A stretch of DNA of 42,857 nt from the IMG/VR virus record IMGVR_UViG_3300009431_000038, positions 1-42,857 of that record; one strand, written 5' to 3'. The stretch comes from a virus. Positions 4,587-38,246 of the stretch are shown here, piece by piece. The notes under the pieces are model-generated. The model was not told the DNA's origin and did no database searches. It saw nothing but the letters and a program-made list of their open reading frames with translations. The translations under genes and the position numbers were made by a program. Position 1 is the stretch's first letter; the number at the start of each line of letters is the position of its first letter.

Positions 4587-6225
4587 CACAGACGTTCCTG
4601 AGGAAGAACGAAAAGAACTAGAAAAGGAATTGAAAGAATCAGTCAAGATAAAAAACACACTCAAAGGAATAGACACCATCCACCCAGCAGGAATGGTCGT
4701 CGAGAACTTTGCGATAGAACCAATCGGAAGCGGTAAGTACATCTATAACATTCATAATCAACTCGGTGAGGCCACAGCCGAAATCAATTATGAAACTAAG
4801 AAATGGTTCATTAAGATAGAAGGAATAGAAGTACCCCTAGACGGCAAACCATTAGATAAAAGTGAATTAGTCTTTAATATGCCAGACAAAGACATTGTTA
4901 ATAAATTAATTAAAGGCAAAATAGAGCCAGTAACTTCCACAGAGCTTTATATTAATACTAAGAATTATTTTAAAAGATTTCTTGATTTGACTGAAGAATG
5001 CTATTATGATGGTTTAACGGTGGCTGCTTTCCAATCATGGTTACTGCCTGTTCTTAACTCTGTATTCTTCACAATGGCTTGTGGAGAGTTTGGAGGGGGG
5101 AAAACAGTTCAAATGAGTACTTTAAAACATGTATGCCGCCATGGTTATCAACCAGACCCAAGTGTTGCCTTCATTGGTCGATGCTTAGACCGATGGAAGG
5201 TTACTCCATTCATTGATGAATTCGATAAACTAGGAGAAAAAGATAATGAATTATACCGAATTGTGAGAACAGCCTATCGAAGAGGGGGGACTTACACTAG
5301 AATGGCTGATAAAGGTCAAAGAGTTGAGTCATTCAATACTTTTGGTATGATTGGCTTCACAGTTCATGGAACGATCGAAGACGCGCTACAAACAAGAAGC
5401 CTTCCATTATACACAACTGTTAATGAAAGGAAAGAATTACCTAAATTGGGCAACGTGCGCAACCACATCGGCAACACCCTTTATAACCAATTTTTTATAT
5501 GGTATATTAGGAATATAGTAGATATATATAATAAGTATGTTGCTCATGTTGCTCATGTTGTTGATATTATAAATAATAATATATACGGTGGCAACGATAG
5601 TGAGTTACTTAGTGTTATACAGTTTGAGTCTGCTGGGAACGGGCAACACGGCAACACGGGCAACCATGAAGGAAGAAATGCAGAACTCCATCAGGTAATT
5701 CTTGAGCTATTGCATTGGATTGGCTTTCTTCGAACGGGCAACGACTTGGGCAACAACATCCTTAAATCAGTTGATAGATTATTAGAATTAAAGAATGAAA
5801 TACGCGAGGAATTGAGGGAAACGGGGGTTAGCGGCATTTTAAGGGATTGGTTAGTAGTTTATTATAAAAAACATAGAATGGACGCGCAATATAGAACTGA
5901 AAATGGATTATTTGTTGGCGCTAATCAAGAGATTTATGATGGATTAACTGCTTACGCTAAGAATAAAGGTTATACTTTTCATATTCCGCCCAGTGAGTAT
6001 CGTGGTTTGATGAGGGATTTTGGTTGGGCTAAAGGTAAGAATGAGCGTAAAATGAGGGTAAGGCTTCAATCAGAGGAGAAAAAAGTTATTCGCTTAGCTT
6101 TTATTTATGATGAGCGTATTCAGCGTAATCTTGGGATTAAGATCGAACCCTTAAAGGAGGAGCGCACTTTTGAGGATTTTTTAGACAAAGGAGTAAATGA
6201 AATTACGGAGGCTGATGATAATTAA
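4564..6225 (+). CDS. Replicative DNA helicase (P-loop, primase-helicase type)
   Basis: A 553-residue protein with the pattern of the helicase half of phage and plasmid primase-helicases. Walker A is GEFGGGKT at 174-181, and Walker B is VTPFIDEFDKL at 213-223. A Gly/Arg segment (AYRRGGTYTRM) follows at 237-247, and a TRSLP arginine-finger-like stretch at 277-281. Residues 1-130 are a separate N-terminal domain with no visible primase motif. Residues 295-397 are a Gly/Asn-rich linker encoded by an origin-like repeat array, and residues 400-525 look like a winged-helix DNA-binding domain. The role would be unwinding viral DNA, perhaps after loading by the AAA+ protein at 896. I am sure of the ATPase and fairly sure of the helicase role. 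Confidence 0.75.
   Translation: MEELPKTNTDVPEEERKELEKELKESVKIKNTLKGIDTIHPAGMVVENFAIEPIGSGKYIYNIHNQLGEATAEINYETKKWFIKIEGIEVPLDGKPLDKSELVFNMPDKDIVNKLIKGKIEPVTSTELYINTKNYFKRFLDLTEECYYDGLTVAAFQSWLLPVLNSVFFTMACGEFGGGKTVQMSTLKHVCRHGYQPDPSVAFIGRCLDRWKVTPFIDEFDKLGEKDNELYRIVRTAYRRGGTYTRMADKGQRVESFNTFGMIGFTVHGTIEDALQTRSLPLYTTVNERKELPKLGNVRNHIGNTLYNQFFIWYIRNIVDIYNKYVAHVAHVVDIINNNIYGGNDSELLSVIQFESAGNGQHGNTGNHEGRNAELHQVILELLHWIGFLRTGNDLGNNILKSVDRLLELKNEIREELRETGVSGILRDWLVVYYKKHRMDAQYRTENGLFVGANQEIYDGLTAYAKNKGYTFHIPPSEYRGLMRDFGWAKGKNERKMRVRLQSEEKKVIRLAFIYDERIQRNLGIKIEPLKEERTFEDFLDKGVNEITEADDN
5446..5756 (+). repeat. GCAAC iteron array flanking AT-rich DNA, candidate replication origin
   Basis: Inside the helicase gene, GGGCAAC occurs at 5448, 5641, 5658, 5736 and 5748. 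The close variants GCGCAAC (5457), CGGCAAC (5469, 5649) and TGGCAAC (5589) share its core. The opposite orientation appears as GTTGCTCAT, repeated twice at 5539-5556. Between the left and right clusters lie stretches that are about 84% A+T (5481-5538) and about 90% A+T (5557-5585). Iterons around an AT-rich unwinding zone are the layout of many origins, and phage lambda places its origin inside the O initiator gene in the same way. Confidence 0.55.
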
Positions 6226-6703
6226 ATATTGTGTTGCTTGCGGTAAAGAAATAAACAAAAATCTAAAGCCATCTCTTTTTAATACAAGAATTTTTTGTTC
6301 ACATGATTGTGCTAATAAGTTTAGGAGTGGTTCAAAACACCCAATGTGGAAGGGTGGAAAGAGTTTAACAGGTAGTAAATATATCTTATTAAGGGCTTCA
6401 TTATTATCAAAAGAAGATAGAGATAAATATGGATCAATGATTACTAAAAAGAATACTATACTTGAACACCGTCTTGTTGCTGCAAAAAAAATAGGAAGAC
6501 CACTAACACAATTTGAGATAGTTCATCATCTTAATGGAGATAAAACAGATAATAGACCTGAAAATTTAATTGTTTTGACTAGAAAGGAACACAATATTGA
6601 GCATTATTTAAAAGAAGGATTATTGGTTTGTCCACAATGTGGTTTTAATTTCAAAGACAAAGGTATGGGGGATCATGATGAGGAAGCCAATGTATCTGGG
6701 TAG
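6197..6703 (+). CDS. HNH homing-type endonuclease
   Basis: A 168-residue protein. The N-terminal zinc knuckle uses CVAC and CSHDC. A HPMWKGG segment follows, as in many phage homing nucleases. The HNH core reads EHRLVAAKKIGRP, then EIVHHLNGDKTDNRPENL and RKEHNIEH. A C-terminal CPQC pair adds a further half-ribbon. Two starts are possible: ATG 6197 (AAAGGAG site, 3-nt spacing) or ATG 6215 (GGAGG site, 3-nt spacing), and the domain begins after both. It overlaps the helicase stop and the next gene, an arrangement typical of a mobile endonuclease wedged into a compact operon. Confidence 0.8.
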   Translation: MKLRRLMIIKYCVACGKEINKNLKPSLFNTRIFCSHDCANKFRSGSKHPMWKGGKSLTGSKYILLRASLLSKEDRDKYGSMITKKNTILEHRLVAAKKIGRPLTQFEIVHHLNGDKTDNRPENLIVLTRKEHNIEHYLKEGLLVCPQCGFNFKDKGMGDHDEEANVSG

Positions 6704-6882: not shown

Positions 6883-7506
6883 ATGAGTGATGAAGTGATT
6901 CTTGAAAAGTACGAGAAAGTAGACCAATTATCAGCGGGTGGCCGGTATTATCGACTAGTTGAGGCAGCGGAGCCAATAGAGATAACAGTTGATGAGTATC
7001 GAAAGATAGAAGCTAGCGGCAAACAAGCTGATTATGCTTTGAGTAGCACTAACAAAGATGGCCAGACTGGTTACTACTTTGAGATACTAAGTAGTGAAAA
7101 CAAAGTATTAACAGTTAATACTTGGGGTTTGAAGAACGCAGTCGAAGACGTTTTCAGAAAGGCTGGTAAGATAAAAGGTGTAACAATGAAGCTTTCAAGA
7201 CCGAAAAAGGGGAATTATATTGCAGAGGCTACGGCCCCTGCTTCTACTATTAAGGAGATTAAAGATAAAGCATCTGAAATTAAACCAAAGAAGTCTATCT
7301 TTAAGGAGAAGGATAAGAAGTTGCTGGAGAATGAGCAGTTGATCTGGAACTATATGTATGAACAAAAGAGGAGTACTTACACGAATGCAGACATAATACT
7401 CGACCTAGGATTAACAATGATTGAAGCAACTCTATACATAAATAATCTAAAAAATAAAGGCATAATCTATGAGCCAACGAGTGGGAGCTACTCACTGGTG
7501 AAGTAA
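6883..7506 (+). CDS. Putative ssDNA-binding protein with C-terminal winged helix
   Basis: A 207-residue protein. Residues 1-120 are beta-rich with charged and aromatic residues (GRYYRLVEA, TGYYFEIL, GVTMKLSRPKKGNYIAEA), as expected of an OB-like nucleic-acid-binding domain. A charged linker leads to residues 148-207, a clear winged-helix pattern (LIWNYMYEQKR, ATLYINNLKNKGIIYEP). OB fold plus winged helix is the layout of the RPA32 family, so an archaeal-type ssDNA-binding replication protein is my best guess. A transcription regulator is the main alternative. It has its own promoter and a strong ribosome site. Confidence 0.4.
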   Translation: MSDEVILEKYEKVDQLSAGGRYYRLVEAAEPIEITVDEYRKIEASGKQADYALSSTNKDGQTGYYFEILSSENKVLTVNTWGLKNAVEDVFRKAGKIKGVTMKLSRPKKGNYIAEATAPASTIKEIKDKASEIKPKKSIFKEKDKKLLENEQLIWNYMYEQKRSTYTNADIILDLGLTMIEATLYINNLKNKGIIYEPTSGSYSLVK

Positions 7507-8221: not shown

Positions 8222-9196
8222 TTATTTGAGAATAAAATGATTAATGAAGAATGCAGGGAACTTAATCCAATAAAGAGGGCTAAGATAATGATAACGAGCT
8301 AGCACGAATCGATTCAATTTAGGCACTCGAAGATAATTAGTAGTGGTTTGATGATTAATAATACAATCATAAATATCAAGCGAGTCATTAATCTTTCGCT
8401 TAGGCACAGTGAAACTAGTGTAACCCATCCCAACATTCTTATCCCAATGACTATCACTACCACCAATATCAGCAGGCCCTTCCTTACCAAATAATATTCT
8501 TAACTTACGGCCAAGATCGCATTGAAACATATTGCTAGAAGTATTAGTAACTTCAATCGCACTTATTCTCCCACCATTCTCATAATACTCAATTATTCTA
8601 TGTTCGTCATAACCACGCCAACTCTTATAATGAGCGGGAACCACAAGCATCCGAACATCACTCAAACCAGAAGGAATGATATAACCATTAATTATTCGAT
8701 CACCACGATTAAACCGTTCCTCAACCTTAATTAATTGCTCCAAACTCATGCCAGTCTTAAAAGTATGACCAAGATACTCAACCTTACGAGCATTCTTTTG
8801 ATTAACCCCGAAAGCGTAAACTAACTTATGCTTAAAGAAGCCAAGTTCAGTGCCATAAATAGGGATAACCGGGTCATAATCATCAATTTCTTTACTGAGT
8901 TTATCATTCAAGTAATCAATACGCTCATCTATCTTTTTGATATTGCCAAGAGAGTTATGGGGGGTCAAAGCTATGATTTTCATCTTAGTAATCGCTGCTC
9001 TCTCGGCAATATCATCAATTAGGCTAATAGCCTCCCCTACCTTTGTGCTATAGGGATTATGAATGTGGATGTGCATGTCGCCACAATAATGTTGTTTAAC
9101 ATTAATCTTAGATTCTAAAACATCATCAACGTTGAAAAAGAATGAAACTGGATTTAACTTCTTTAATTTATGCCTTAATTTCCTGAGATATTCCAT
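8222..9196 (-). CDS. PHP-family metal-dependent phosphoesterase
   Basis: A 324-residue protein with PHP hallmarks: DMHIHIHNP at 40-48, an ALTPHNS segment near 77-83 and GGSDSHW near residue 250, all rich in metal-binding His and Asp. PHP proteins hydrolyse phosphoesters using a metal cluster. Homologues act on histidinol phosphate, nucleotides or sugar phosphates, or proofread DNA. It is the final gene of the glycan cassette, so a sugar-linked phosphodiester is a likely substrate, though this is inferred. The Tyr/Pro-rich C-terminus (about 290-324) is hydrophobic and might attach to membrane. Confidence 0.7.
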   Translation of the reverse strand: MEYLRKLRHKLKKLNPVSFFFNVDDVLESKINVKQHYCGDMHIHIHNPYSTKVGEAISLIDDIAERAAITKMKIIALTPHNSLGNIKKIDERIDYLNDKLSKEIDDYDPVIPIYGTELGFFKHKLVYAFGVNQKNARKVEYLGHTFKTGMSLEQLIKVEERFNRGDRIINGYIIPSGLSDVRMLVVPAHYKSWRGYDEHRIIEYYENGGRISAIEVTNTSSNMFQCDLGRKLRILFGKEGPADIGGSDSHWDKNVGMGYTSFTVPKRKINDSLDIYDCIINHQTTTNYLRVPKLNRFVLARYHYLSPLYWIKFPAFFINHFILK

Positions 9197-9202
9197 CCCA
9201 TA

Positions 9203-10243
9203 TTATATTATGGTCTTTATATGATTTAATAGTTTTCGTGCGCTTTCATCCCAAGTCATGTTCTTTCGGAAGTCTTCACTATTCTTCAAGCCCTTCTCTT
9301 TAGCCTCTTTTTGATGATTAAAGACGTAACGCATCTGCTTCCTTAAAGCCTTAATGTTAGGTGTAAACCAATTAGCTTCTTCATAATAATGCTTTGGTCG
9401 GCCAGTAGCGGGTTTTAATTCACCATCATCTATCAAATAATTATTGCCATTAGCGAGGTATTCTCCTTGACCACCATAACTATTAGCAATCACAGGCAAA
9501 CCACAAGCCCCTGCTTCAAGACAAGGCATGCAGAAAGCATCAGCCTTAGTAGGCATCACAAAACAATCACTAGCCGTGTACAATCCAGGCAACTTATCAT
9601 AAGGCATCACATTATAAGCAGTGATGATCAAAGCGCGTTCCTTCTTCAACTCAAGCTTGGCTATATCATTAGCTATCTTCTGTTCAGGCGCATAAGATGT
9701 ATTAATCTTAGCCACAAACCGAACCTTCTCATCCTTACTGAACTCTTCATTAAAAGCTATTAAAGCCAAATCCAATCCTTTGCGGTCATTAACGCCGTCA
9801 GCCCAGCCTCCAACATATAAGAAAGTAAACACGTCTTTGTTAGCTAATTGTTCATTAGGCTTTGCATCTGGATTAAATAGTTCAGGATCCACTCCATGAG
9901 GCACTATCTTTAACTTATCGGCTGGTACTCCAGCATTAACGAAAGCTTGTTTACTATGTTCACTAGGAGTGAAGATTAACTTAACCTTATCACTGTTAGC
10001 GTTGATAGCCCATCCAGTACTTACTTTATCTCCTTCGAAGACGCCGAACGGACAGAAAGCTTTGAATCGCTTATTCCAGAATAACGGCCAAACATCTGGT
10101 GTCACTATGGCCGTTAATATGTGTTCTTTATCAAAGTCTTTCATCTTTAAGTCACATTGCTTCTCTAATGCTTCAGCTAATTTAGTTGTGTGAACAGAGT
10201 AACCTGTTGCACCTCCTTTATTCCCTATCAAATTAAGTATCAT
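9203..10243 (-). CDS. Glycosyltransferase, GT-B fold (GT4-like)
   Basis: A 346-residue retaining-type glycosyltransferase. The N-terminal Rossmann half starts MILNLIGNKGGATGYSVHT. The linker reads PHGVDPELFNP, and the C-terminal half has the nucleotide-sugar motif in ADAFCMPCLEAGACGLPVI. The usual Glu-x7-Glu pair is altered at the first position, where Asp replaces Glu. ATG 10243 is chosen because GGGTGAGAG lies just upstream and the frame before it overlaps a small coupled gene. It transfers an unknown sugar from a nucleotide donor to the cassette's acceptor glycan. Confidence 0.8.
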   Translation of the reverse strand: MILNLIGNKGGATGYSVHTTKLAEALEKQCDLKMKDFDKEHILTAIVTPDVWPLFWNKRFKAFCPFGVFEGDKVSTGWAINANSDKVKLIFTPSEHSKQAFVNAGVPADKLKIVPHGVDPELFNPDAKPNEQLANKDVFTFLYVGGWADGVNDRKGLDLALIAFNEEFSKDEKVRFVAKINTSYAPEQKIANDIAKLELKKERALIITAYNVMPYDKLPGLYTASDCFVMPTKADAFCMPCLEAGACGLPVIANSYGGQGEYLANGNNYLIDDGELKPATGRPKHYYEEANWFTPNIKALRKQMRYVFNHQKEAKEKGLKNSEDFRKNMTWDESARKLLNHIKTII

Positions 10244-10362
10244 TATTCTCTCACCCACACAGAATCTATTCTTAATCCTTTTAACCATTTAAGTTTAAAC
10301 ATTTTTTTCTTAAATTCTTTTAGTGTCATCTCAGCAGATATTTCTACTACAAAATTTCTCAT
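10243..10362 (-). CDS. Very small coupled basic protein
   Basis: A 39-residue basic protein (MRNFVVEISAEMTLKEF, then a Lys-rich run and an RIDSVWVRE end). The ATG overlaps the preceding GT-A stop (ATGA), and its TAA shares one base with the ATG of the following GT-B enzyme. The coupling and its GGTGA-type site for the downstream gene support translation. The role is unknown; it may mainly serve to couple translation. Confidence 0.45.
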   Translation of the reverse strand: MRNFVVEISAEMTLKEFKKKMFKLKWLKGLRIDSVWVRE

Positions 10363-11186
10363 ACTCCTGGTTCACCTCCATTCTTTTCAAACTGCCACTT
10401 AGCCCATCGCCTAAAATGCTCATCATTCATCCGAACAACTTGAGGGTAATTCTGAATGCGAGCCCCACCACTCAAACAAGGCATGTGAAAAGCCATAGCC
10501 TGAGTCACAGTCTTTAAACTATAACCAGCGTACCTCATCGCGATCGACCAGTGAGTTTCTTCACGAAAACCCGTAACCCCATAATCCAAAGGAAAGTGAC
10601 CAACAGTACTGCTAGCATCTCGCCTAAAAAGCCAACTACTCCTAAGATGATGACTGGGCATAATACTATTAACGTTATAATCAAGTCCTCCATCATCGCC
10701 GAGATAAGTGATGTTACCTTTTTTGTCGTATTTAATTTCATTAAAGACACCTCCTAATACTTTAACATTACGATAATGATTTGGCCCACTCATTAAGGGC
10801 ACTGTCCCCCCTATTCCTCCACATTTATCATCCTTTATTAATTCATCATAAAGCATTTGCAAGTAATCTGGATGAACCCAACTATCATCATCAACTCTCA
10901 ATATTAATGGATTCTGGAATTCATCTTCTCTAATTAATTGATTGCGAGCCTTGCCAATATTGAGTAAACTGAATTTATTACGAATTAATTGGAAGCCATG
11001 ATCTTCATAGACCACTCGCTTAAAGACGTCATCAATGAATTTATACTTTTGAACTGGAGTGCCTCCTCCATCGTCCAATACAACCAAATCCCAATCTTTG
11101 AACGAGCTTGCTAATAAGCTAGATACACAGATAGCTAGCTCTGAAGGACGATCCTTACTACAGATATTAATGCTAATTCTTTTCAT
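10359..11186 (-). CDS. Glycosyltransferase, GT-A fold (GT2-like)
   Basis: About 275 residues from ATG 11186. The N-terminus is typical of GT2 enzymes (MKRISINICSKDRP, then VVLDDGGG). The metal-binding DxD equivalent is DDD at 99-101 in LRVDDDSWVHPDY, and the acceptor-side segment contains GVTGFREETHWS. An inverting transfer from a nucleotide sugar is expected. Upstream codons from 11207 overlap the methyltransferase end and are unlikely to be used. It is coupled to the genes on both sides. Confidence 0.8.
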   Translation of the reverse strand: MKRISINICSKDRPSELAICVSSLLASSFKDWDLVVLDDGGGTPVQKYKFIDDVFKRVVYEDHGFQLIRNKFSLLNIGKARNQLIREDEFQNPLILRVDDDSWVHPDYLQMLYDELIKDDKCGGIGGTVPLMSGPNHYRNVKVLGGVFNEIKYDKKGNITYLGDDGGLDYNVNSIMPSHHLRSSWLFRRDASSTVGHFPLDYGVTGFREETHWSIAMRYAGYSLKTVTQAMAFHMPCLSGGARIQNYPQVVRMNDEHFRRWAKWQFEKNGGEPGV

Positions 11187-11697
11187 ACAAATATAATTGA
11201 TTAGCAAAATGCCAATCAGACGGAACCTCCAATTTTTTTAAACCCTTCTTCTGTAATTCATTCTCCCACCAACTCCTAGATCTCAACGTAACGTGAGTAG
11301 GGTCGACATAAACGTCCTTAAGAGTGATATCACAAATAGATAGTAAGATATAACGCTTAGCGTAATGGACAAGATCGTCCAATACCTCATTAACTTTGTC
11401 TATAGGAACGTGCTCTAATACATCAAAACACAATATTAGATCAAAACGCTTATCATTATCAGGAAGCTCATTACTTAATTTATTAACGGACATACCGTAA
11501 GCATTCTCCACACTCCATTCACTAACATCATAACCATTAGTTGCCACACCATAATAGATCAAGGCATGAGTGAAGAATCCTTGACCACAACCATAATCCA
11601 AGCAAGTCCTTGGCTTCAAATCCTTAACATATTGAAGAGCCAATCGATAATATTTATCCTCAAACTTCCGATCCTTAAAATATTCTTCCTCAAACAT
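11173..11697 (-). CDS. SAM-dependent methyltransferase
   Basis: A 174-residue class I methyltransferase. Motif I is LDYGCGQGFF near 33-42, the acidic ribose-binding end is GYDVSEWSV, and the motif IV region is LILCFDVLEHVP. The DPTHV motif in its C-terminal half also occurs in the adjacent methyltransferase at 11697, so the two may act on related substrates. The short length suggests no extra domain. A sugar O-methyl transfer is the likely role in this glycan context, not proven. Confidence 0.8.
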   Translation of the reverse strand: MFEEEYFKDRKFEDKYYRLALQYVKDLKPRTCLDYGCGQGFFTHALIYYGVATNGYDVSEWSVENAYGMSVNKLSNELPDNDKRFDLILCFDVLEHVPIDKVNEVLDDLVHYAKRYILLSICDITLKDVYVDPTHVTLRSRSWWENELQKKGLKKLEVPSDWHFANQLYLYEKN

Positions 11698-12125
11698 TAT
11701 TTAATCACCTCAAGAATAACATGAAGATTCTTATCAGGACTAGTATCATGCCTTATGAGAAAAGTCTTGAAATGAGGATAACCATAAAGATAACGCCATT
11801 CATCAAAATACAAGAAAGAATTCTTAGTAAAGAACCTGACGTGAGTAGGATCCCTGAATGCTGGTTCGCCAGGAGCCTCCGGGACAAGGATATCAATTTT
11901 AGCTCCTGGCTTACAGACTTTATGAATATCAATCATTAACTGCTCATAACGATTTATGTGCTCCAATATATGATGAGCCACTACATGAGTCACAGTATTC
12001 TCCTTAATCATTGGAGGCAAGCCAAATTCTATATCCCAAAGGATGTCTGGCTTATGAATGATTAACTTATCGATATTAACGAATCCGTTATATTTTTTCT
12101 TGCCACAACCAATATTAATCTTCAT
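11697..12125 (-). CDS. SAM-dependent methyltransferase
   Basis: A 142-residue compact methyltransferase beginning MKINIGCGKKKYNGF, as in predicted SAM-dependent enzymes of polysaccharide clusters. VAHHILEHINRYEQ supplies the motif IV area, and PGAKIDILVPEAPG follows. The start at ATG 12125 has an AGGTGG site 4 nt upstream; GTG 12134 is less likely. DPTHVRFF near the C-terminus matches the neighbouring enzyme. Probably modifies a sugar or lipid-linked glycan. Confidence 0.8.
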   Translation of the reverse strand: MKINIGCGKKKYNGFVNIDKLIIHKPDILWDIEFGLPPMIKENTVTHVVAHHILEHINRYEQLMIDIHKVCKPGAKIDILVPEAPGEPAFRDPTHVRFFTKNSFLYFDEWRYLYGYPHFKTFLIRHDTSPDKNLHVILEVIK

Positions 12126-13234
12126 GGGAACCACCTATACAATGAATCCTTCTCAACACATTGCTCTATTTGTTGATTGTACACTCCGCCAGCACAACGA
12201 GTACACTTACTTAAATTGATGTTATTAACTATTCTTCTATGATCCATACTACCCCAGAAATCATATATCTCGCTCCAATGCTTCATCTTCCATTCCTTCT
12301 GATAACGATGATCAATACAAGTATACCAATAACCATCAGCACAAATCTGTAATAAAAGAGGAGTACTATGACATTTCTTGAATTTAAACGTCCGACCATA
12401 AGTACCGGGATCAACTCGGCTAAAACTCCCATAAACCTTGAACTTATCAGTTTCCTCTCGCTTACATAAAGTCATCTGAAAATCAATATTCTCAACATCA
12501 AACTTAGGCTTCTTATTTTTATAAATCTCTAAACCCTCAACAGCTGCCGGTCGAGCGAAGAAAGTAGGAAAGCCCCATGATTTAGCTGCTTCACAAGCTT
12601 TAAATATTTCCTTCTGATTCTCTTCAGTAATCAAGAATTTATAAGCAAGATCAACTCTTCTAGGTCTTCGTCTACTGCGTTTATAATCAGCCATTAATAA
12701 ATTGACACCATCAAATAATTTCTTAAAAGTTCTTTTATTACTTCTTTTATAATTAATCCAGGTGTTAGGAAAGCCACAATCAAAACTTATTCCGCAGAAC
12801 TCAGTGTACTTAATAATAGCCTCTCTAATCTTCTTCTTATGTAATTGAGTGCCGTTAGTAGAGATACCTACTTGGAAGCCATTTTCATGAGTATACTTAA
12901 TTATATCAGCAAAATCAGGATGCAATGTTGGTTCTCCTCCCCCAGCAAAACAAACACTCATCAAAGACTCAGGCCCATTCCACCAATTATCACGCCAATC
13001 AACTAGCATATCAATAATCTTAAAAACTTCCTTCTTACTTAACTTCAAGCCCATCTTCCAACTACGAGCTGCATTACAGCCACGACAACGCAAGTTACAA
13101 GTAGTAGTTAAATCTATTGTAACGCCTATTGGGGGGTATAGTAATTGACTATTACCTCTTTCCCAAGCAATTATGTTTTCATAATGTTCTATCCAAGTCA
13201 AGCCCTTCAACTGAGAAAAACTATTATAATTCAT
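12122..13234 (-). CDS. Radical SAM enzyme with C-terminal cysteine region
   Basis: A 370-residue protein. The cluster motif CNLRCRGC occupies C46, C50 and C53, binding the 4Fe-4S cluster that cleaves SAM. GGGEPTLHP near 95-103 is the conserved SAM-contacting segment. The C-terminal 100 residues contain further cysteines (CHSTPLLLQICADGYWYTC, then CTRCAGG and EQCVEKD), resembling a SPASM-type region that holds auxiliary clusters. The substrate is unknown; such enzymes modify peptides or sugars. It overlaps the methyltransferases on both sides by 4 nt. Confidence 0.8.
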   Translation of the reverse strand: MNYNSFSQLKGLTWIEHYENIIAWERGNSQLLYPPIGVTIDLTTTCNLRCRGCNAARSWKMGLKLSKKEVFKIIDMLVDWRDNWWNGPESLMSVCFAGGGEPTLHPDFADIIKYTHENGFQVGISTNGTQLHKKKIREAIIKYTEFCGISFDCGFPNTWINYKRSNKRTFKKLFDGVNLLMADYKRSRRRPRRVDLAYKFLITEENQKEIFKACEAAKSWGFPTFFARPAAVEGLEIYKNKKPKFDVENIDFQMTLCKREETDKFKVYGSFSRVDPGTYGRTFKFKKCHSTPLLLQICADGYWYTCIDHRYQKEWKMKHWSEIYDFWGSMDHRRIVNNINLSKCTRCAGGVYNQQIEQCVEKDSLYRWFP

Positions 13235-13758
13235 CGCTTAACACCCCAAGCGAATACATCTTTATTATCACGCTCATACCAAATCTTCTGAGGAACTAAA
13301 CCTTTCATCCATACAGTTAATAAATCCTTGCTAATATTACAATAACATTCACGAGGACCAGGAGTGTGAACATTAGATCCCTCAACATAATGAGGATTCA
13401 TATTAGGAGCGGCAGCCGCAACAATCAATAAACCACCCTTCCTCAAGACCCTAATAGCCTCACTCATGCTCTTATGAGGATGATGATCATGCTCTAACAT
13501 CTCACTACTAACTACCACATCAAAAGACCCATCATCATACTGCAAGTCATTAGCGTTCATTATCATATCAACACCCAAGCCATCAGTAATGTCAATACCA
13601 GTATAATTAATTCCTTCAGGGAAAGCGGCTTTAACTCTAGGCCCACTATAACCATCAGGGTAATCCTCCTTACTGCCAAGCTCTAAAACTCGCGCGTATG
13701 AAGAATCCCAACGCTCATCAATTACTTTCTTAATGAAATCAAATACTGATCTATGCAA
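13231..13758 (-). CDS. SAM-dependent methyltransferase
   Basis: About 175 residues. Motif I is VLELGSKEDYP, then YTGIDITDG, and the motif IV region is DVVVSSEMLEHDHHP, followed by RVLRKGGLLIVA. TTG 13758 is the preferred start, since a CAGGTGAT site lies 4 nt before it; the frame opens as far back as 13806. The His/Asp-rich EHDHHPHK is unusual and might bind metal, as in some sugar methyltransferases. It sits between GT-A and radical SAM genes. Confidence 0.75.
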   Translation of the reverse strand: MHRSVFDFIKKVIDERWDSSYARVLELGSKEDYPDGYSGPRVKAAFPEGINYTGIDITDGLGVDMIMNANDLQYDDGSFDVVVSSEMLEHDHHPHKSMSEAIRVLRKGGLLIVAAAAPNMNPHYVEGSNVHTPGPRECYCNISKDLLTVWMKGLVPQKIWYERDNKDVFAWGVKR

Positions 13759-14533
13759 CCCAATCACCTGCCCGTTCTTTACCAGCGTCTCCCCACTTCT
13801 TTGCAAAATACTCCCAGCCCTTTTTAAGATTACTCTTCATCCGTTCATCACCAAACTGCTCCTTATTAGTCCTACTGCCAATATGATAAATAAAACTGCC
13901 AAGACAAACACCAATCTTCCAACCACGCTTCTGAGCCTCCCAACAATAATCAATATCTTCAACTCCACTGATATAATTCTCATCCAACTTAACTTGCTCC
14001 CATAAACGCTTATTAACTATCACGCAAACAAAACATAAATCAGGAGATGGGATTAAAGCAGGTTTGACGCACTTATGATTAGGGAAGTATTGTAATGATT
14101 GACCCACATAATTAGTAGTGGCTCCAATCAGACCATACTTACTATTACCCCTCATGGTGACGTAAAGATTTAATGCCCAATTAGGAGCGCAGATAGTATC
14201 ATTATTTAATAAGATAACAAAGCCCCCTCTACTAGCCTCAATCCCTCTATTACAAGCGCTGGCAAAACCAATATTATTTGCTTCAACAACTTTAACTCTT
14301 TTCAAATGTGGAAATTTATCATATAAATGATTTTTTATTATTTTTTGCTTAGGTTTAATTTTAATATCTCTTTCAGTACCGAGATGCTTTAACCAATCAA
14401 TCGTTCCATCAGTACTACCATTATCAACAAAAATTAATTCATAAGGAATTGTCATAGTCTTTTGAATAGACTCAACACATTGCTTAGTGAAGTGCAATAA
14501 ATTCCAAGTCGGGATCACAATAGATAAAACCAT
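13751..14533 (-). CDS. Glycosyltransferase, GT-A fold (GT2-like)
   Basis: A 260-residue GT2 enzyme resembling rhamnosyl- or galactosyltransferase-like proteins. It opens MVLSIVIPTWNLLHF, with VDNGSTDGT at about 36-44, NNIGFASACNRGI near 86-98 and LNND at 109-112 as the metal-binding site. GVEDIDYCWEAQKRGW near 185-200 is the catalytic-base segment. The length is typical. It follows another GT2 with a shared base at 14533, indicating sequential sugar additions. Confidence 0.85.
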   Translation of the reverse strand: MVLSIVIPTWNLLHFTKQCVESIQKTMTIPYELIFVDNGSTDGTIDWLKHLGTERDIKIKPKQKIIKNHLYDKFPHLKRVKVVEANNIGFASACNRGIEASRGGFVILLNNDTICAPNWALNLYVTMRGNSKYGLIGATTNYVGQSLQYFPNHKCVKPALIPSPDLCFVCVIVNKRLWEQVKLDENYISGVEDIDYCWEAQKRGWKIGVCLGSFIYHIGSRTNKEQFGDERMKSNLKKGWEYFAKKWGDAGKERAGDWVA

Positions 14534-15240
14534 TAGATATGGAACCTCCGTTTAATACTAGAAGGGTAATCACCCACATAAGGAATGACAGGATAAGAAT
14601 TAAAGAGAATGGACTTATACCACCAATCCAAGAACTCCTTCTTATGAACCTTACTATCCTTAAGATTACTCTCATAAGCCTTAACATGACGCATCATCCG
14701 CTTAGCATGACAGAAATGATAAACCACGACATCTTCAATATCACCAACCATTTTAACACCACTTAAGACAGTATGTTTAGTTGAAGGATAAAAGAGTCTA
14801 TCAGTTCTTTTATAAAAACGCCTCAAAACAGTATGCTTAGGCTTAGTTGAATCAATAAGCCCAAAATTATAAACAAAATGAATCATTGATAAATTATAAC
14901 AATCAAATTCTTTATTCATGTATTCTCTTAATAAATAACCTTTATCACTTAATACTTCATCAGCATCCAACTGAAGTATCCAATCACCAGTAGCATACTT
15001 AAAGAATTGATTCATCTGATCACCAACACTTGAAGGCCACTTATGACGAATTACTTTATAGCGTTTATCAGCCACTTCATCAAGCATCATCATAGTCTCA
15101 TAATCAGCATTATGATCAAGAATAATAATCACTTCATCAGCCAAGTAATCAATAGATTCAAGACTAAGCTTTAGCCAATCAGCTTCGCCAGCCCCAACTA
15201 TATAACAAACACTTATTTTATCCCCACTCTGCTTTTGCAA
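14533..15240 (-). CDS. Glycosyltransferase, GT-A fold (GT2-like)
   Basis: A 235-residue GT2 enzyme of the short kind with a DAD metal-binding motif at 92-94 in LQLDADEVLS. The N-terminus (ISVCYIVGAGEADWL) is the usual nucleotide-binding strand and loop, and LDHNADYET replaces the more common DNGSTD. The C-terminal part is rich in His and Trp (VVVYHFCHAKRMMRHV), as in LPS core-type transferases. It overlaps the radical SAM gene by 23 nt. Confidence 0.8.
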   Translation of the reverse strand: MQKQSGDKISVCYIVGAGEADWLKLSLESIDYLADEVIIILDHNADYETMMMLDEVADKRYKVIRHKWPSSVGDQMNQFFKYATGDWILQLDADEVLSDKGYLLREYMNKEFDCYNLSMIHFVYNFGLIDSTKPKHTVLRRFYKRTDRLFYPSTKHTVLSGVKMVGDIEDVVVYHFCHAKRMMRHVKAYESNLKDSKVHKKEFLDWWYKSILFNSYPVIPYVGDYPSSIKRRFHI

Positions 15241-16453
15241 AACTCATCAACTCCATTAAATCACTCTTACTTAAATGCTCAGTCTCAATAATAGGCTCAG
15301 GCACTTTTTTACCAGCCTGCAAATACTGATCCCAAGGCAACTTCTTATCAAACCTAATACCATAAGATTTAGGATTATGCCAGATATCACTGCCAGGAAA
15401 AGGAGTAAGAAAATAGAAATCAGCAGTATTAACACCACAAGATTTACTGAACTCAATAGTCTTCAAAGCACTCTCTTTAGTCTCGCCAGGCAAGCCAAGA
15501 ATGAAAAAACCCTTAACCCTCATGCCGACTGATCTAGCCCAACCAATAGCTTGCTTATTAATCACTGTGCTCATATTCTTACCAACACGCTTCAACACAA
15601 TATCATCACCACTCTCAACACCAAAAGAGATAACATCACAACCAGCTCGTTTCATATTCTTCAATAAATCCTTATTAACGAAATCAGCGCGGGTAGTGGC
15701 CCTCCAAGAAAGATCATAATCAGTATTCAAATGCATACCCCTGATAGCATCACATAGATCATTGGTTCTTTTCTTACTAGCAGTGAAGACATCATCCTGA
15801 AAGTAAACCCCTTTATAATTATAATCATCCATTAAACTAATAATCTCAAGAACTATATTCTTAATACTACGATAACGAACTGATCGACCATAAACTTGCT
15901 TACTACAATAAGCACAACGATTAGGACAACCACGACTAGTGATCATCGTGGCAGTACGCTTACCATTAATAACCATATTATAATTACGCATATCAATCAA
16001 TTCCCTGGCAGGATAAGGAAAACGATCAAGATTCTCAACTCTGGGAGACTCAAATACTCCTTTATAATTCATATCAATAATCCAATCCAAACACTCCTCT
16101 CCTTCACCAACAATCACCGTGCTAAAACCATGCTTTAAAGGCTCTTTAGGCAAAGCAGATGGATGTGGCCCACCAGCGATTAATAAGAGATCAGGGTAAT
16201 TATGCCTTAATTGCTCGCTTAACTCATAAGCCCTAGTGGCTTGAGGGGTGGTGAAACTAATCCCTATAGCATTACTGCGACTGGCTTGGAAGAAGAGATA
16301 GGATTCATTATTATGATTCATATCCAATAATATTATTTCATAATCATCCCGTTGTTGTAATGCAGCCCCAAGATAACCAATTCCAAGAGGGAATCGGTCT
16401 CCAGCGTTAGCAAGAAAAGGATCCTTTAATGAAACAAGACAAACACGTTTCAT
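15218..16453 (-). CDS. Radical SAM protein with N-terminal cobalamin-binding-like domain
   Basis: A 411-residue protein. Residues 1-130 have the Rossmann-like pattern of B12-binding domains (GIGYLGAALQQR, IAGGPHPSA, VIVGEGE). However, the cobalamin-ligand motif DxHxxG is not evident where DMNHNNE stands, so cofactor binding is uncertain. The radical SAM core carries CPNRCAYC (C176, C180, C183) and GVESGDD. Members of this class perform C- or P-methylation, ring contraction or other radical chemistry on natural products and lipids. A role in building an unusual sugar or lipid anchor is inferred. Confidence 0.8.
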   Translation of the reverse strand: MKRVCLVSLKDPFLANAGDRFPLGIGYLGAALQQRDDYEIILLDMNHNNESYLFFQASRSNAIGISFTTPQATRAYELSEQLRHNYPDLLLIAGGPHPSALPKEPLKHGFSTVIVGEGEECLDWIIDMNYKGVFESPRVENLDRFPYPARELIDMRNYNMVINGKRTATMITSRGCPNRCAYCSKQVYGRSVRYRSIKNIVLEIISLMDDYNYKGVYFQDDVFTASKKRTNDLCDAIRGMHLNTDYDLSWRATTRADFVNKDLLKNMKRAGCDVISFGVESGDDIVLKRVGKNMSTVINKQAIGWARSVGMRVKGFFILGLPGETKESALKTIEFSKSCGVNTADFYFLTPFPGSDIWHNPKSYGIRFDKKLPWDQYLQAGKKVPEPIIETEHLSKSDLMELMSFAKAEWG

Positions 16454-16629
16454 TTTTTCTTCACCTTATTTTTATGATAAAGTACTGCATTCCAATAAAT
16501 TGTTAATAACCATACCGGGATCAATGATATTGAATTAGTATGATTAACTGTATTTAAGCCTAAAACAATGATTATGGGCAACCAAATAGAAATCAATATC
16601 CCAAACTTATCAAAATATCTAAGCTTCAT
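16450..16629 (-). CDS. Small two-span membrane protein
   Basis: A 59-residue protein with hydrophobic spans at about 10-25 (GILISIWLPIIIVLGL) and 35-48 (SLIPVWLLTIYW) and a basic end (YHKNKVKKK). The stop overlaps the radical SAM start (ATGA). The GGTGAAG site precedes ATG 16629. It might anchor the glycan enzymes at the membrane. I do not recognise a family. Confidence 0.55.
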   Translation of the reverse strand: MKLRYFDKFGILISIWLPIIIVLGLNTVNHTNSISLIPVWLLTIYWNAVLYHKNKVKKK

Positions 16630-16635
16630 TTTTCT

Positions 16636-17835
16636 TCACCAATTCATCACCTTCTTCTTAAAAAAATTATCCCAAGTCTTAAATACCACACCCCAATCAT
16701 ACTCCAAAGCCTTACTACGAGCACGCTTACCCTTAACCTTACGAGCCTTATCATCACTAAAAGCATCCAACAAAGCATCAGCAGCCAAACGATGATCAAT
16801 AATAGCCCGATCAACCTCATAAGTACCCATCAACCGAGCAGCAGGCTTAACAAGCCAACCAGTATCACCTAATATCTCAGGCGCAGTAGTATAATCAGTA
16901 GTGATGACCGGAGTACCCGCTAACATTGACTCAACAAAAGGGATACCCCAACCCTCACCACTAGTCCCAAGGAGGAACACATCACCAATATTATACAACT
17001 CATTAACTTCCTCATCAGTAACGCCATGATAAAACTTCATACCAGTCCAGAAAACCTTATCAGCCACTCCAAAACGATTAGCCACACTACGAAGATTAGT
17101 GTGAGCAGCCGGGTCCTCTGGATCACTATTAAATAATAGAATTAAATCCTTCATCTTATCTTTAATCAAACTAAAAGCCCTTAAGTTCTCAGCCAACATC
17201 TTACGACCCTGATTACGAGAATTAATGAAAGCTATCTTCTTATTAGTTAAGTCAGTCTTCTCGCCTTTACAATTAATACAGATATCACTCCACTTCCTTC
17301 TTAATTCAAACTTCTTCTTATCTGGGTGAGGGAAATAAATATTCTTATCGCTGCCTAATGGTATGTAATCAGTCTCTATTCCATACTGATCAGCCACTTG
17401 CTTCTGAGCAAAACGACTATAAGCCACAGGGAAATCAGCCTTCTTTAATACAGCCTCACAACCAGTAGGAAAAGGCACGCCATCACTAGGGAACCACATA
17501 ACAAACTTAGCAGGAGACAAATCCATCCGAAGGATAGGGGGATTAAGCATGAATGTATCACAAGTAACAAAGAATATATCTGGCTTGTACTGATTAATAT
17601 AAGGAACGATCTTATCAATACCGAACTGCATCTTACCGTGCGGCAGTATTGGAAACTTAAAATGATATTTATCAAACTTACTGTCATGTAATGGCTGGCC
17701 AAAATAATGCCAACTGAAATGGGTCAAGTCATATTCTTCTTTATCTTGCAATCGCTTAAAGATATTCTTCATCTGGTTGGCATAGCCAGTAACAGTGAAG
17801 AGAGAATCACTCATCCCAAGAACTTTGATTTTCAT
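16636..17835 (-). CDS. Glycosyltransferase, GT-B fold (GT4-like)
   Basis: A 399-residue glycosyltransferase. It begins MKIKVLGMSDSLFTVTGYANQ, and the donor-binding half contains SGEGWGIPFVESMLAGTPVI, the complete Glu-x7-Glu motif. A CINC pair near 185 is unusual in the family and could be structural. The start has a GAGGGG site 7 nt before the ATG. It is the first glycan gene after the tail genes and overlaps the preceding small gene by 29 nt, which ties the cassette to the late transcript. Confidence 0.85.
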   Translation of the reverse strand: MKIKVLGMSDSLFTVTGYANQMKNIFKRLQDKEEYDLTHFSWHYFGQPLHDSKFDKYHFKFPILPHGKMQFGIDKIVPYINQYKPDIFFVTCDTFMLNPPILRMDLSPAKFVMWFPSDGVPFPTGCEAVLKKADFPVAYSRFAQKQVADQYGIETDYIPLGSDKNIYFPHPDKKKFELRRKWSDICINCKGEKTDLTNKKIAFINSRNQGRKMLAENLRAFSLIKDKMKDLILLFNSDPEDPAAHTNLRSVANRFGVADKVFWTGMKFYHGVTDEEVNELYNIGDVFLLGTSGEGWGIPFVESMLAGTPVITTDYTTAPEILGDTGWLVKPAARLMGTYEVDRAIIDHRLAADALLDAFSDDKARKVKGKRARSKALEYDWGVVFKTWDNFFKKKVMNW

Positions 17836-18022
17836 CCCAACCCCTCAAACCACTAGCCGCGATATACAGAGAACCAGCTCCATAAGCAATCCTCACAACA
17901 GTCCCTTTAGGAAAATACTGTTGGTAGATTGAAGGAATTGAAACGCAGGTATACTCTTTCCCACCATATTCTTTCTGATTAGAATAAACTTTTACTTTAG
18001 CATAACCCAAAGCCATCTTCAT
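17807..18022 (-). CDS. Small hypothetical protein linking tail and glycan genes
   Basis: A 71-residue protein, beta-rich in the first two thirds (YAKVKVYSNQ, YTCVSIPSIYQQYFPKGTVVRIAYGAGSL). The segment PSIYQQYFPKGTVVRIAY is reminiscent of the swapped-hairpin AbrB-like fold, but I cannot confirm this. A weak TATA-like stretch lies about 32 nt before ATG 18022 and no ribosome site is visible, so it may be leaderless. ATG 18016 is an alternative. Confidence 0.5.
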   Translation of the reverse strand: MKMALGYAKVKVYSNQKEYGGKEYTCVSIPSIYQQYFPKGTVVRIAYGAGSLYIAASGLRGWDENQSSWDE

Positions 18023-20613: not shown

Positions 20614-21795
20614 TCATAACACCCCCACATTCTCCTTTAACGCTAAAGTAGTGAACCAACCACGATTAGTCCAATCATGACTCACTTCCTCAAGCCTTAA
20701 TTCTTTACCATCATCCCATCCAAAACTAGGGACTTTAATAGTTACGTTAACATTACTACCAGCAGTGAACTCAGTATTCCCTTTAATAATCGCGTCTCCT
20801 TCCCAACGAGGCATTCCTTCTTCCAAAGCTAATTGTTTTGCCTTAACTGTTCCTTGACGTTTAGCCTCATCATAAATCTCGGCATTAGTCTTCAAACCAC
20901 TCCATTGCTTGTAAATATTATCATAAATCTCAGTATGAGTGGCGTAACCCCACTTAAAACCATATTGATTTATTGCCGTACGATTACCACCAGCACAATA
21001 AATACCATCTCCAGTAACATCCTCTCCAGCCTTGACCATAAAAGCAGTATAACGATTAGCGATTGATTGTTCCATATTAATACTAATTATATTAACTCCT
21101 TCCTCTAATTCAGTACTACTAGAAACGCTTGTCTTACGCTCAAAATGAAGCTCTTTATCTCGATCAATATAGAAAACAAAATTACCAACCCCAGTGAAGT
21201 CACCAGTTCTTATCTCATTAATCACTTCATTAGCCCTTTTATTCATATAAGTAAGATTAAATTCACTACCAAGAGTATGATACCAACTCTGGGTTTCACT
21301 GCCAGGATCAACATAAGTAGAATAACCAATATCATCACCAATCGAGTCTCTAGCAACAAACTCTCTTACTATGTGTTTAACTACTTTACCAGACGTGATG
21401 TCACTATCATCGCCTTCACCCCAATTAATAGATGCCCCACTTCGATAACGAAACTGAACAAAATAATCCATTAATTTACGAGAATAATCCATCCCAACTA
21501 ATTCAACAGTCCGACTATTAGAACTAAGCCTATATCTCGTTCCCTCAACAATACCAAACATTAAAACAGTCGGTGAATCACTACCATAACCAGCTTCTAT
21601 CTTAACATTATCACCATAAACAAAACTACCAGCATTCTTACCAGCGGCATTATCAATAGTGAACCTGAACTTCCCAGACTTAGTGTTAACACCCTCATCT
21701 TCACCAAGCTTAGTAACGTCACTAATCAAATAACTGCCAGGATCACTCCTTGCAGGTGAAGGAAAATGATAAATATTAAAATAAGGATTGGCCAT
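20614..21795 (-). CDS. Tail hub protein (gpD/gp27-like)
   Basis: A 393-residue protein. The N-terminal third resembles hub domains (FRFTIDNAAGKNAGSFVYGDNVKIEAGYG, MFGIVEGTRYR, RTVELVGMDYSRKLMDYFV). The middle contains helices (TYMNKRANEVINEI) and FVFYIDRDKELHFERK, typical of the second hub domain. The end is a beta domain (VNVTIKVPSFGW, RLEEVSHDW). It would cap the distal tail and anchor the fibres encoded downstream. I am fairly confident from the pattern and position after the tape measure. Confidence 0.6.
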   Translation of the reverse strand: MANPYFNIYHFPSPARSDPGSYLISDVTKLGEDEGVNTKSGKFRFTIDNAAGKNAGSFVYGDNVKIEAGYGSDSPTVLMFGIVEGTRYRLSSNSRTVELVGMDYSRKLMDYFVQFRYRSGASINWGEGDDSDITSGKVVKHIVREFVARDSIGDDIGYSTYVDPGSETQSWYHTLGSEFNLTYMNKRANEVINEIRTGDFTGVGNFVFYIDRDKELHFERKTSVSSSTELEEGVNIISINMEQSIANRYTAFMVKAGEDVTGDGIYCAGGNRTAINQYGFKWGYATHTEIYDNIYKQWSGLKTNAEIYDEAKRQGTVKAKQLALEEGMPRWEGDAIIKGNTEFTAGSNVNVTIKVPSFGWDDGKELRLEEVSHDWTNRGWFTTLALKENVGVL

Positions 21796-26280: not shown

Positions 26281-26658
26281 TCACTCCGTTTGGTAAAAAG
26301 GAGCGCTGCGGCCAAGAGTATTAAGATTCAATTTAATATTCTGGTTTATAAAATCCATACGCTGGACGTTAGCACTACTCTTCTGACCTTTATTTATCTT
26401 GAAGTCACCAAGGCTTGTGCTAAAATCAACTCCTACTCCTTCCATTGCTCCTAATGTGTAAAATTTACCAAGCTCCCAGAGGATTAACTGATATTGTTGC
26501 GCAACATCATCGTTGTTTATTGTATCGCTAGTCCAGTTCTGAACAAGTATTTTACCAGTCTCAATGTATTGCTGAATACTCCCAGTAGAGATGCTACTAG
26601 GGATATCCAGTATTGCTTGCTCAACCCATGTGGCTATGCTCCCAACTGAGATTGCAAT
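26281..26658 (-). CDS. Head-tail adaptor-like protein with probable ATT start
   Basis: A 125-residue frame with no ATG, GTG or TTG before its conserved part. It reads (M)AISVGSIATWVEQAI, and continues with helices and ILVQNWTSDTINND, then GVDFSTSLGDFKINKG and a final NLNTLGRSAPFYQTE. The mix of a helical adaptor core and this C-terminal extension fits the gp6-type connector that rings the portal. GAGGTGA (26665-26671) lies 6 nt before ATT 26658, and an in-frame stop sits just upstream. The HNH gene overlaps its first 25 nt, so insertion of that element may have removed the original start. Confidence 0.6.
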   Translation of the reverse strand: MAISVGSIATWVEQAILDIPSSISTGSIQQYIETGKILVQNWTSDTINNDDVAQQYQLILWELGKFYTLGAMEGVGVDFSTSLGDFKINKGQKSSANVQRMDFINQNIKLNLNTLGRSAPFYQTE

Positions 26659-27095
26659 AAATCTTCACCTCTTCTTTGTTCATAATGTAATCTAGCGTGT
26701 AATCTTCTTCCCATTACTACTAAATTAATATCTTCGTTGTTTTTAATGTTTCCATCTATATGATGTATCACAAAATCTGGAGTTAAAATAACTTTCCATT
26801 TATTTTTAACAATTTTTCTCGCAATTTTTCCATATTTAATTCTTTCATTCCTTGTCCATTTATTATTTCCTTTCTTAAAACTTCCACTATTTGGCTTCAT
26901 AATTCCTTTAATCCCTTTATTCCATGGTGCAATCCCTTTCTGAGAATTACTCATTTTTCTCAATGTTTCTTCAGAATAAATCCCTTTTTCCCCTTTATTC
27001 CAAGGATTCCTTCCAAATTTCTTTTTTCTCATTAATTCTATCCATTCCTCTGGAACTTTATGTCCTTTCACAAATTTGCCTTTTTCATCTCTCAT
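26634..27095 (-). CDS. HNH homing endonuclease with NUMOD-type repeats
   Basis: A 153-residue protein. The N-terminal part has three NUMOD3-like segments (FGRNPWNKGEKG, GIAPWNKGIKG and SGSFKKGNNKW), which contact DNA in homing nucleases. The HNH core is FVIHHIDGNIKNNEDINLVVM followed by HARLHYEQ. Its stop codon lies within the start of the adaptor gene. It is a mobile gene inside the structural operon, unrelated to the head-tail functions around it. Confidence 0.8.
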   Translation of the reverse strand: MRDEKGKFVKGHKVPEEWIELMRKKKFGRNPWNKGEKGIYSEETLRKMSNSQKGIAPWNKGIKGIMKPNSGSFKKGNNKWTRNERIKYGKIARKIVKNKWKVILTPDFVIHHIDGNIKNNEDINLVVMGRRLHARLHYEQRRGEDLLQSQLGA

Positions 27096-33859: not shown

Positions 33860-34699
33860 TTAAGTGGTTGTTATCTTACAAGTAGCGTTAGCTCTTAATT
33901 GTCTTACTTTTATTCTTTGAGTGGCTGTTGAGCCAGTCATGTCCCCTGTAGTGTCATCGAAGTTACTAACCGTTAGTGGTCTCTTTTCAACAATCATGAA
34001 CGAATGATTCCTGTCAATTATGTAAGCATATTTTGTGTTCATAATATTAGCGCTTACGACATGAACGTCCATGTTGAAGATTCTTCCAATAAGACTCTTG
34101 CTAGGATCACTGATCCCTGCCTTGTCTGCTTCAACGAATGTGTCAATATTTCTTAAATCATTAGCTACTTCTGGTCCAATGTACATATCAGTTGCCTCAT
34201 AGTCATTGTCCTCTAAGTATTGTATTCCCCTTGTGATGTTAGCAATTAATATTGCTGCACCGCCAGTAACAGTATTACCAGCGTTATCCCAAGCGTCACT
34301 AATGATTAAGCTATCTTCATTCTCAGCAAGTCTCTTGGCTGCCGTTCTAACGTTTCGTGGAAGTAAATCAAACTTACCGTCTTCTTGCATTTCATTAGTT
34401 ATTTTAAGTGAAACGCCGTACTTTGTCGGTTTCATGTTGAAAGTTTCATAACTTTCCTCATCAAGTGTTATTTTACTTCCTTCAGCAATCTGATAGACAT
34501 CCATACTGTTAGGAGTCATTAAGTCAACGTCGTAACTTGCGCCTTTGATACCATTGGGTCCTACAACTATTGCGGCTGCACTTCTGCCTATTCTTTTCTT
34601 TTCTGCTTCCTCAATTAATTGGGCGTGAATAGTTCTAGGGATTAATAATTGTCCTTCTATTCCGTCACCGGTTTTTAATAGTTCTTGTACTTTTTTCAT
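33860..34699 (-). CDS. Major capsid protein (HK97 fold)
   Basis: A 279-residue protein. A short N-arm leads to the P-domain and E-loop pattern (ASYDVDLMTPNSMDVYQIAEGSKI), and KYGVSLKITNEMQEDGKFDLLPRNV forms the spine-helix area. Further helices carry TRGIQYLEDND and DMYIGPEVANDL. The A-domain end is FNMDVHVVSANIMNTKYAYIID. The length and position after the protease-scaffold and cement genes support the call. No large N-terminal delta domain exists, because the scaffold is supplied by the 35163 product. Confidence 0.8.
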   Translation of the reverse strand: MKKVQELLKTGDGIEGQLLIPRTIHAQLIEEAEKKRIGRSAAAIVVGPNGIKGASYDVDLMTPNSMDVYQIAEGSKITLDEESYETFNMKPTKYGVSLKITNEMQEDGKFDLLPRNVRTAAKRLAENEDSLIISDAWDNAGNTVTGGAAILIANITRGIQYLEDNDYEATDMYIGPEVANDLRNIDTFVEADKAGISDPSKSLIGRIFNMDVHVVSANIMNTKYAYIIDRNHSFMIVEKRPLTVSNFDDTTGDMTGSTATQRIKVRQLRANATCKITTT

Positions 34700-38211: not shown

Positions 38212-38246
38212 TTATATAATAGTTAGTTCTAGGTTTATAAAATTAC
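38212..38246 (-). promoter_or_regulatory. Portal promoter
   Basis: On the - strand, TATTATATAATT (38211-38222) is centred 28.5 nt before ATG 38187. A second TATA-like TTTTATAAACC lies around 38236-38246, partly in the end of the terminase gene. No ribosome site is present before the ATG. The gap between terminase and portal is 55 nt, unlike the usual overlaps in this operon. Confidence 0.6.

Follow-up and report, generated by a model that had tools for sequence, protein, structure and literature searches.

Glycosylation encoded by viruses is already known from mycobacteriophages and giant algal viruses, and radical S-adenosylmethionine (SAM) genes have been reported among the glycan genes of phages. 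The mycobacteriophages Che8, Corndog and Myrna glycosylate their capsid and tail tube proteins with glycosyltransferases of their own (Freeman et al., 2023, as cited in PMC12363180), and in the chlorovirus PBCV-1 the protein A064R, a single polypeptide holding two rhamnosyltransferases as well as a methyltransferase, makes part of the capsid glycan (PMC9614988). Here we describe a cassette of glycosyltransferase, methyltransferase and radical SAM genes on the minus strand at positions 8222–17835 of a 42,857-base IMG/VR virus record (IMGVR_UViG_3300009431_000038, positions 1 to 42,857; hereafter, the window). The cassette is a module that is conserved in a family of uncultured viruses: an outer frame of genes keeps its order from virus to virus, and the genes inside it change.

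This family differs from the described systems in several ways. As they are described, the mycobacteriophages have one or few transferases, whereas the family of the window has a conserved frame with radical SAM and other cargo, and no isolate. The chloroviruses (A064R and A061L of PBCV-1, B736L of NY-2A) share with it viral glycosyltransferases and sugar methyltransferases, including a glycosyltransferase–methyltransferase fusion, but they are giant viruses of eukaryotes, their genes are not homologous to the cassette as a locus, and no radical SAM enzymes are reported for them in the available part of PMC9614988. In ctQWt234 (MW202801) radical SAM, glycosyltransferase and methyltransferase genes lie behind the capsid gene, and its radical SAM protein aligns over the full length with that of the window at 27% identity; in phiPsal1 a GT4, a methyltransferase and a GT2 gene stand in the same place. 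Both, however, belong to other virus groups and have neither a cobalamin (B12)-type radical SAM gene nor the common frame order. A preliminary description of the window held an assembly line of such completeness to be rare among tailed viruses; in this family it is in fact regular, with looser analogues in ctQWt234, phiPsal1 and TJE1. A limited check of the open literature found no description of a fixed glycosylation frame with exchangeable radical SAM or epimerase cargo in a virus family linked to DPANN archaea, and obvious search phrases returned almost nothing on DPANN viruses.

The cassette and its genes

The cassette encodes two GT4 and three GT2 glycosyltransferases, three methyltransferases, two radical SAM enzymes, one of them of the B12 type, and a PHP-domain phosphoesterase. 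These eleven assignments had been proposed in the preliminary description and all were upheld by Pfam, that of MT2 weakly, with a PHROG methyltransferase match in addition. The cassette makes up 22.4% of the record, which agrees with the earlier figure of over a fifth as far as the record goes; the record has no terminal repeats and is possibly incomplete, so that the share of the genome is less certain. No tRNA genes were found in the window.

Read 5′ to 3′ on the minus strand, the first gene is GT4a (16636–17835; PF00534, 3.8e-15), a GT-B glycosyltransferase 35–43% identical to its counterparts in four relatives and found in the same slot in 40 viral loci. It is followed by an open reading frame (ORF) of 59 codons (16450–16629) with one hydrophobic segment in the hydropathy scan, which was not seen in relatives, and by the B12-binding-domain radical SAM gene (15218–16453; PF04055, 2e-21, 77.3 bits; PF02310, 2.5e-15, 56.8 bits), in a variable slot between GT4a and GT2a. 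GT2a (14533–15240; PF00535, 3.2e-13) is a GT-A glycosyltransferase of the frame. Then come four genes of interior cargo: GT2b, also a GT-A enzyme (13751–14533; PF00535, 6.6e-20), the class I methyltransferase MT3 (13231–13806; PF08241, 8.2e-12), a radical SAM protein of the SPASM/twitch type (12122–13234; PF04055, 1.8e-12), whose C-terminal cysteines align with those of phage ctQWt234 and of one relative (L018), and the short methyltransferase MT2 (11697–12134; PF08241, weak at 8.6e-4; phrog_6636 methyltransferase, 7.8e-8). The frame resumes with the class I methyltransferase MT1 (11173–11697; PF13489, 2.4e-13), the GT-A enzyme GT2c (10359–11207; PF00535, 4.1e-13; listed with a TTG start codon, which is uncertain), 33–36% identical to its homologues in four relatives and sharing unchanged DDD and REE motifs with them, and the GT-B enzyme GT4b (9203–10288; PF00534, 8.8e-15), its last gene. 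The PHP-domain gene (8222–9196; PF02811, 4.4e-6), not seen in relatives, closes the cassette as end cargo. Successive genes overlap by 1–56 bases or lie at most 6 bases apart, with a single gap of 70 bases. No catalytic motif is disrupted: both radical SAM proteins have CX3CX2C, the GT2 proteins have motifs of the DXD type, the methyltransferases have glycine motifs, and the PHP protein has HxH and GSDSH. The two tiny proteins noted earlier exist, but only that of 59 residues lies inside the interval; the other, of 71 residues (17807–18022), overlaps its upstream edge.

The cassette sits after the tail genes, which include a hub-like protein (20614–21795; PF24032, 2e-6; PHROG baseplate hub, 1.6e-5). 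Away from it, also on the minus strand, are the HK97-type major capsid protein (33860–34699; PF05065, 4.7e-8), by which we define the virus family, the hallmark gene terL (38243–39469; PF03237, 2e-18) and, abutting terL as the preliminary description had it, a GalE-like NAD-dependent epimerase/dehydratase gene (39447–40337; PF01370, 3.2e-48), possibly a donor-sugar enzyme. Homologues of this GalE-like gene lie within the cassette in many relatives.

Conserved frame and interior cargo

Scans of IMG/VR with single sequences of the radical SAM proteins or GT4a, using patterns drawn from unconserved stretches, gave no matches, and alignments were then used. An alignment of the B12 radical SAM protein retrieved 60 loci, the best of which also hold other cassette genes in local searches; an alignment of the SPASM protein gave two weak loci only. 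Four of the records (G004, G005, G007 and G014) carry TerL, a related portal and a capsid protein 47–56% identical to that of the window, and share the order GT4a, B12 radical SAM, GT2a+MT1, variable genes, GT2c, GT4b. More widely, capsid, portal and hub genes were found in the records of cassette-bearing relatives, and TerL in 8 of 12 records checked, including every one longer than 20 kb except W01, the phage comparator of G012. G002, at first sight the nearest relative (TerL 39%), was rejected, having no radical SAM genes, GT2 genes or capsid match.

To avoid bias from the radical SAM gene, IMG/VR was also searched with the capsid protein, which gave 325 relatives, 80 of them kept; the same protein had no match among 50,697 phage records. 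Of the kept records at least 40 kb long, six in number with G014 set aside (G386–G391), all have homologues of GT4a, GT2a, MT1, GT2c and GT4b, and five have them in the frame order, the exception being G389, in which the GT2a+MT1 gene has moved 27 kb away. The B12 radical SAM gene is present in four of the six; G386 has the bare frame GT4a, GT2a, MT1, GT2c, GT4b and no radical SAM gene. In a scan with GT4a, all 40 loci agree, as far as they reach, with the order GT4a, GT2a+MT1, GT2c, GT4b, and GT4b is the final frame gene in each of the 21 where it is seen; as the loci are akin to each other, these counts are not counts of independent events. The earlier proposal of a virus-encoded glycan assembly line beside the tail genes is supported, and the gene order that was to be sought in other viruses recurs, as this frame, in dozens of virus records.

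The interior is far less constant. In the slot after GT4a, the 40 loci have a B12 radical SAM gene (16 loci), a GalE gene (8) or neither (14), two being cut off. Behind this slot the variable part includes SPASM radical SAM, methyltransferase and transketolase genes. Besides the genes of the window, relatives carry GalE, additional radical SAM and GT2 genes (G014 and G005) and transketolase-like genes, which are unusual for viruses and occur as two half-genes in G014 (L090, 15330–16803) and also in G005 (L084, 2017–2682). In a quick tree, the B12 radical SAM proteins that occupy the slot in the window and six relatives form one clade (SH-aLRT 99), whereas copies deeper in the cassettes of G388 and G391 fall outside it, a pattern consistent with one long-established gene and several others acquired later.

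GT2a and MT1 are a single protein of about 420 residues in most relatives (eight by domain analysis, and most GT4a loci), GT2a forming its N-terminal and MT1 its C-terminal part; they are separate in the window, G386, L255, L256 and L284, and in the window it is the four inserted genes GT2b, MT3, SPASM radical SAM and MT2 that split them. Activities that are fused elsewhere usually act in sequence on one substrate, and the fusion in relatives suggests that GT2a and MT1 act consecutively on one substrate as well. A064R provides a precedent for such a fusion, one that has been tested with the capsid glycan of a virus.

Several observations were made in passing. A GalE-like gene abuts terL not only in the window (38243–40337) but also in the divergent virus G002 (L005, 8943–11127). 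In G007 (L088), G387 (L221) and G015:C14 (L191) terL is split into two ORFs, which suggests inteins, introns or errors of assembly. Another group of viruses, more distantly related (L029, L032, L037 and L062, in records G010–G013), has these enzyme families in a different arrangement, immediately upstream of terL: SPASM-like radical SAM, B12 radical SAM, (GalE), GT4b, GT4a, TerL. Genes of the HNH_3 type, resembling homing endonucleases, lie at 6197–6703 and 26634–27095 of the window, with related HNH genes in several relatives, and the C-terminus of the product of 6883–7506 weakly matches the winged-helix domain of archaeal MCM (E 5e-4).

Chemistry of the B12 radical SAM enzyme

The B12 enzyme has both a B12-binding domain and a CX3CX2C radical SAM domain, with GGPH and GEGE motifs, and its top NCBIfam match is the lipid enzyme HpnJ. 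In an AlphaFold2 model (pLDDT 94.3), the closest solved fold is AprD4 (Z 35.5; root-mean-square deviation 2.7 over 390 residues; TM 0.80; 23% identity), followed by CysS, MgmA, OxsB and TsrM (Z 28–32). AprD4 acts on a sugar. Its cysteine motif, however, is CPYPCRFYC rather than the CPNRCAYC of the window, and the profile of the window enzyme aligns with AprD4 from the radical SAM domain onwards only, leaving the B12 domain unaligned; on the cysteine spacing, membership of the AprD4 group was rejected despite the closeness of the fold. When a counterpart to the NADPH-dependent reductase partner of AprD4 (AprD3) was looked for, no more than a candidate emerged, an SDR (GalE-like) gene that lies next to the B12 radical SAM gene in several relatives and near terL in the window. 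The cobalamin radical SAM methylases MgmA, TsrM, TokK and CysS, together with OxsB, have the same overall fold (Z 21–32), and with them the profile aligns through the B12 domain, but they are only 14–22% identical to the window protein and act on unrelated substrates.

The preliminary description had taken the pair of radical SAM enzymes to suggest C-methylation. The fold and motifs of cobalamin enzymes agree with this, whereas the closest fold, AprD4, is that of a sugar diol dehydratase. From fold and sequence, C-methylation by the B12 enzyme is possible, with dehydration or deoxygenation a possible second option.

Host and acceptor of the glycan

The capsid alignment has a single match in a cell genome, in a bin of Candidatus Pacearchaeota, and another contig from the same bin has tail genes together with a complete cassette, the evidence being that of binning only. 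A capsid profile matches 7 of 371 genomes of the phylum of that bin; the search was confined to this one DPANN phylum, which limits how specific the link is. One of these matches is to a provirus (G109) within a 421-kb contig, with TerL, portal, protease/scaffold and capsid genes related to those of the window and in order (profile searches: TerL 2e-25, portal 3e-27, capsid 6e-22); a proteasome alpha subunit gene borders the provirus on one side and an integrase gene on the other. The provirus (G109:C2, 212–250 kb; L186 and L187) also has MCM-like, Cdc6-like, CARF-HTH and ParB genes, and a DndB-type gene, like the integrase gene, lies next to it. Between positions 20 and 40 kb of the window and the 371 DPANN genomes, only AT-rich partial matches and no usable spacer match were found. 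The contigs of the Pacearchaeota bin and the provirus in a DPANN chromosome point, at the level of the family, to the tiny DPANN archaea as hosts, and the earlier view that the virus is archaeal is probable from these relatives.

What the cassette decorates is a separate question, on which the preliminary description left a choice between fibres and an altered host coat. We consider it about an even chance that the enzymes glycosylate virion proteins in the cytosol, the core being conserved and the trim variable. The cassette would work in the cytosol of the infected cell, where the core of GT4a, GT2a with MT1, GT2c and GT4b would build and O-methylate a short glycan from nucleotide sugars of the host, and the exchangeable genes (B12 radical SAM, GalE, SPASM radical SAM, extra GT2 and methyltransferase genes, transketolase halves, PHP) would set its sugars and trimmings. 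Proteins of the neighbouring tail, or of the capsid, would be the likeliest acceptors, so that each virus lineage would carry a differently decorated particle, presumably for adsorption or for hiding or varying the particle surface. An outer gene order that is kept while the inner genes change is what would be expected of a virus coating its own particles with variable sugar chains. Moreover, among solved proteins the GT4b profile matches chlorovirus B736L best, the same enzyme is a full-length match of GT4a, and GalT1 is the best for GT2c.

There are points that weigh against this reading. The matches to B736L and GalT1 are weak, perhaps owing simply to the folds common to GT4 and GT2 enzymes, and the acceptor of B736L is itself unsettled. 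The cassette adjoins the 3′ end of the tail module. In the window and in G386 the two run in one direction, but in G007, G014, G387, G388, G390, G391 and G393 the cassette converges on the tail module; since many relatives give it an orientation of its own, co-expression with the tail is not a necessity. With the records of G004 and G005 taken as circular, the cassette would stand between the tail genes and terL there. No recognisable first transferase that links a sugar to protein was identified in the cassette, and glycan and acceptor are here predicted from the genes alone.

The main rival, which we regard as distinctly possible but on balance unlikely, is that the host surface is altered, the products passing through the host flippase and oligosaccharyltransferase onto lipid-linked glycans or S-layer-type glycoproteins, so as to block superinfection or change the receptor. 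The glycan loci of the probable host phylum are crowded with the same kinds of enzyme (B12 and SPASM radical SAM, GT4, GT2, GalE, methyltransferases), with homologues of the B12 radical SAM protein (E at most 1e-30) in 192 of the 371 genomes, and comparable genes of pelagimyophages were read by their authors as serving O-chain modification (PMC7029224). The DPANN cell-surface loci, which include several B12 radical SAM genes, nevertheless lack the frame order and, nearly always, GT2c: outside virus-like contigs GT2c is virtually absent from the phylum, occurring in 4 of 371 genomes, in two of these on contigs with virus genes. They also encode multi-pass membrane proteins, of 6–16 hydrophobic segments, whereas the hydropathy scan of the cassettes of the window and four relatives found no protein with more than two such segments and no flippase, oligosaccharyltransferase, polymerase or membrane anchor, so that by hydropathy the enzymes are soluble. 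The five cassettes have neither the multi-pass GtrA flippase nor the membrane-bound glycosyltransferase of a seroconversion cassette of the Gtr type. Seroconversion is typical of temperate phages, and the tyrosine integrase PF00589 was absent from all 12 family records (the control was positive; other recombinases were not searched, and the records may be incomplete). With no flippase-like protein and no tyrosine integrase, virion proteins are favoured over the host surface as acceptors; a virus could, however, use the flippase and oligosaccharyltransferase of its host, in which case the absence of membrane proteins says little.

A glycoside for the host that is diffusible or bound to lipid, such as a modified lipid or small molecule, seems an improbable product of the cassette. 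AprD4 acts on a small aminoglycoside precursor (PMC5461906) and HpnJ is a lipid enzyme, but the cassettes have no conserved enzyme that would make a scaffold, and in virus genomes the frame is located at the tail module. We think it slightly less probable still that the enzymes hypermodify viral DNA with sugars. Phage glycosyltransferases can act on DNA, and a C5-cytosine methylase gene adjoins the cassette in G004; that gene is not conserved, the GT4 and GT2 enzymes of the frame resemble protein or polysaccharide transferases, and a search of the 12 records for TET/JBP found no match, although its control was silent too. A host fragment or misassembly, named in the preliminary description as what would refute it, can be dismissed, for although near-identical independent contigs (L002 and L098) cover the structural half of the window and not the cassette, the same frame, order and neighbourhood recur in many virus records with TerL and capsid genes.

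Returning to the glycosylation of virion proteins, we tentatively suggest, with the chances somewhat against so full a statement, that an uncultured family of DPANN tailed viruses keeps a fixed glycosylation frame by its tail genes and swaps the tailoring genes within it, giving the virion lineage-specific sugars through radical, possibly cobalamin-dependent, chemistry, as a particle-coat analogue of the O-antigen loci of bacteria. Glycosylation appears as a regular trait of a virus family without isolates that is tied by its genomes to DPANN archaea, and its layout of frame and cargo yields a testable rule for telling the enzymes that make the common core from those that bring diversity. The cassettes also provide small and well-delimited groups of radical SAM enzymes for work on sugars. 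Should the glycans be destined for the virion, variation of the particle surface by means of sugars would extend to archaeal viruses.

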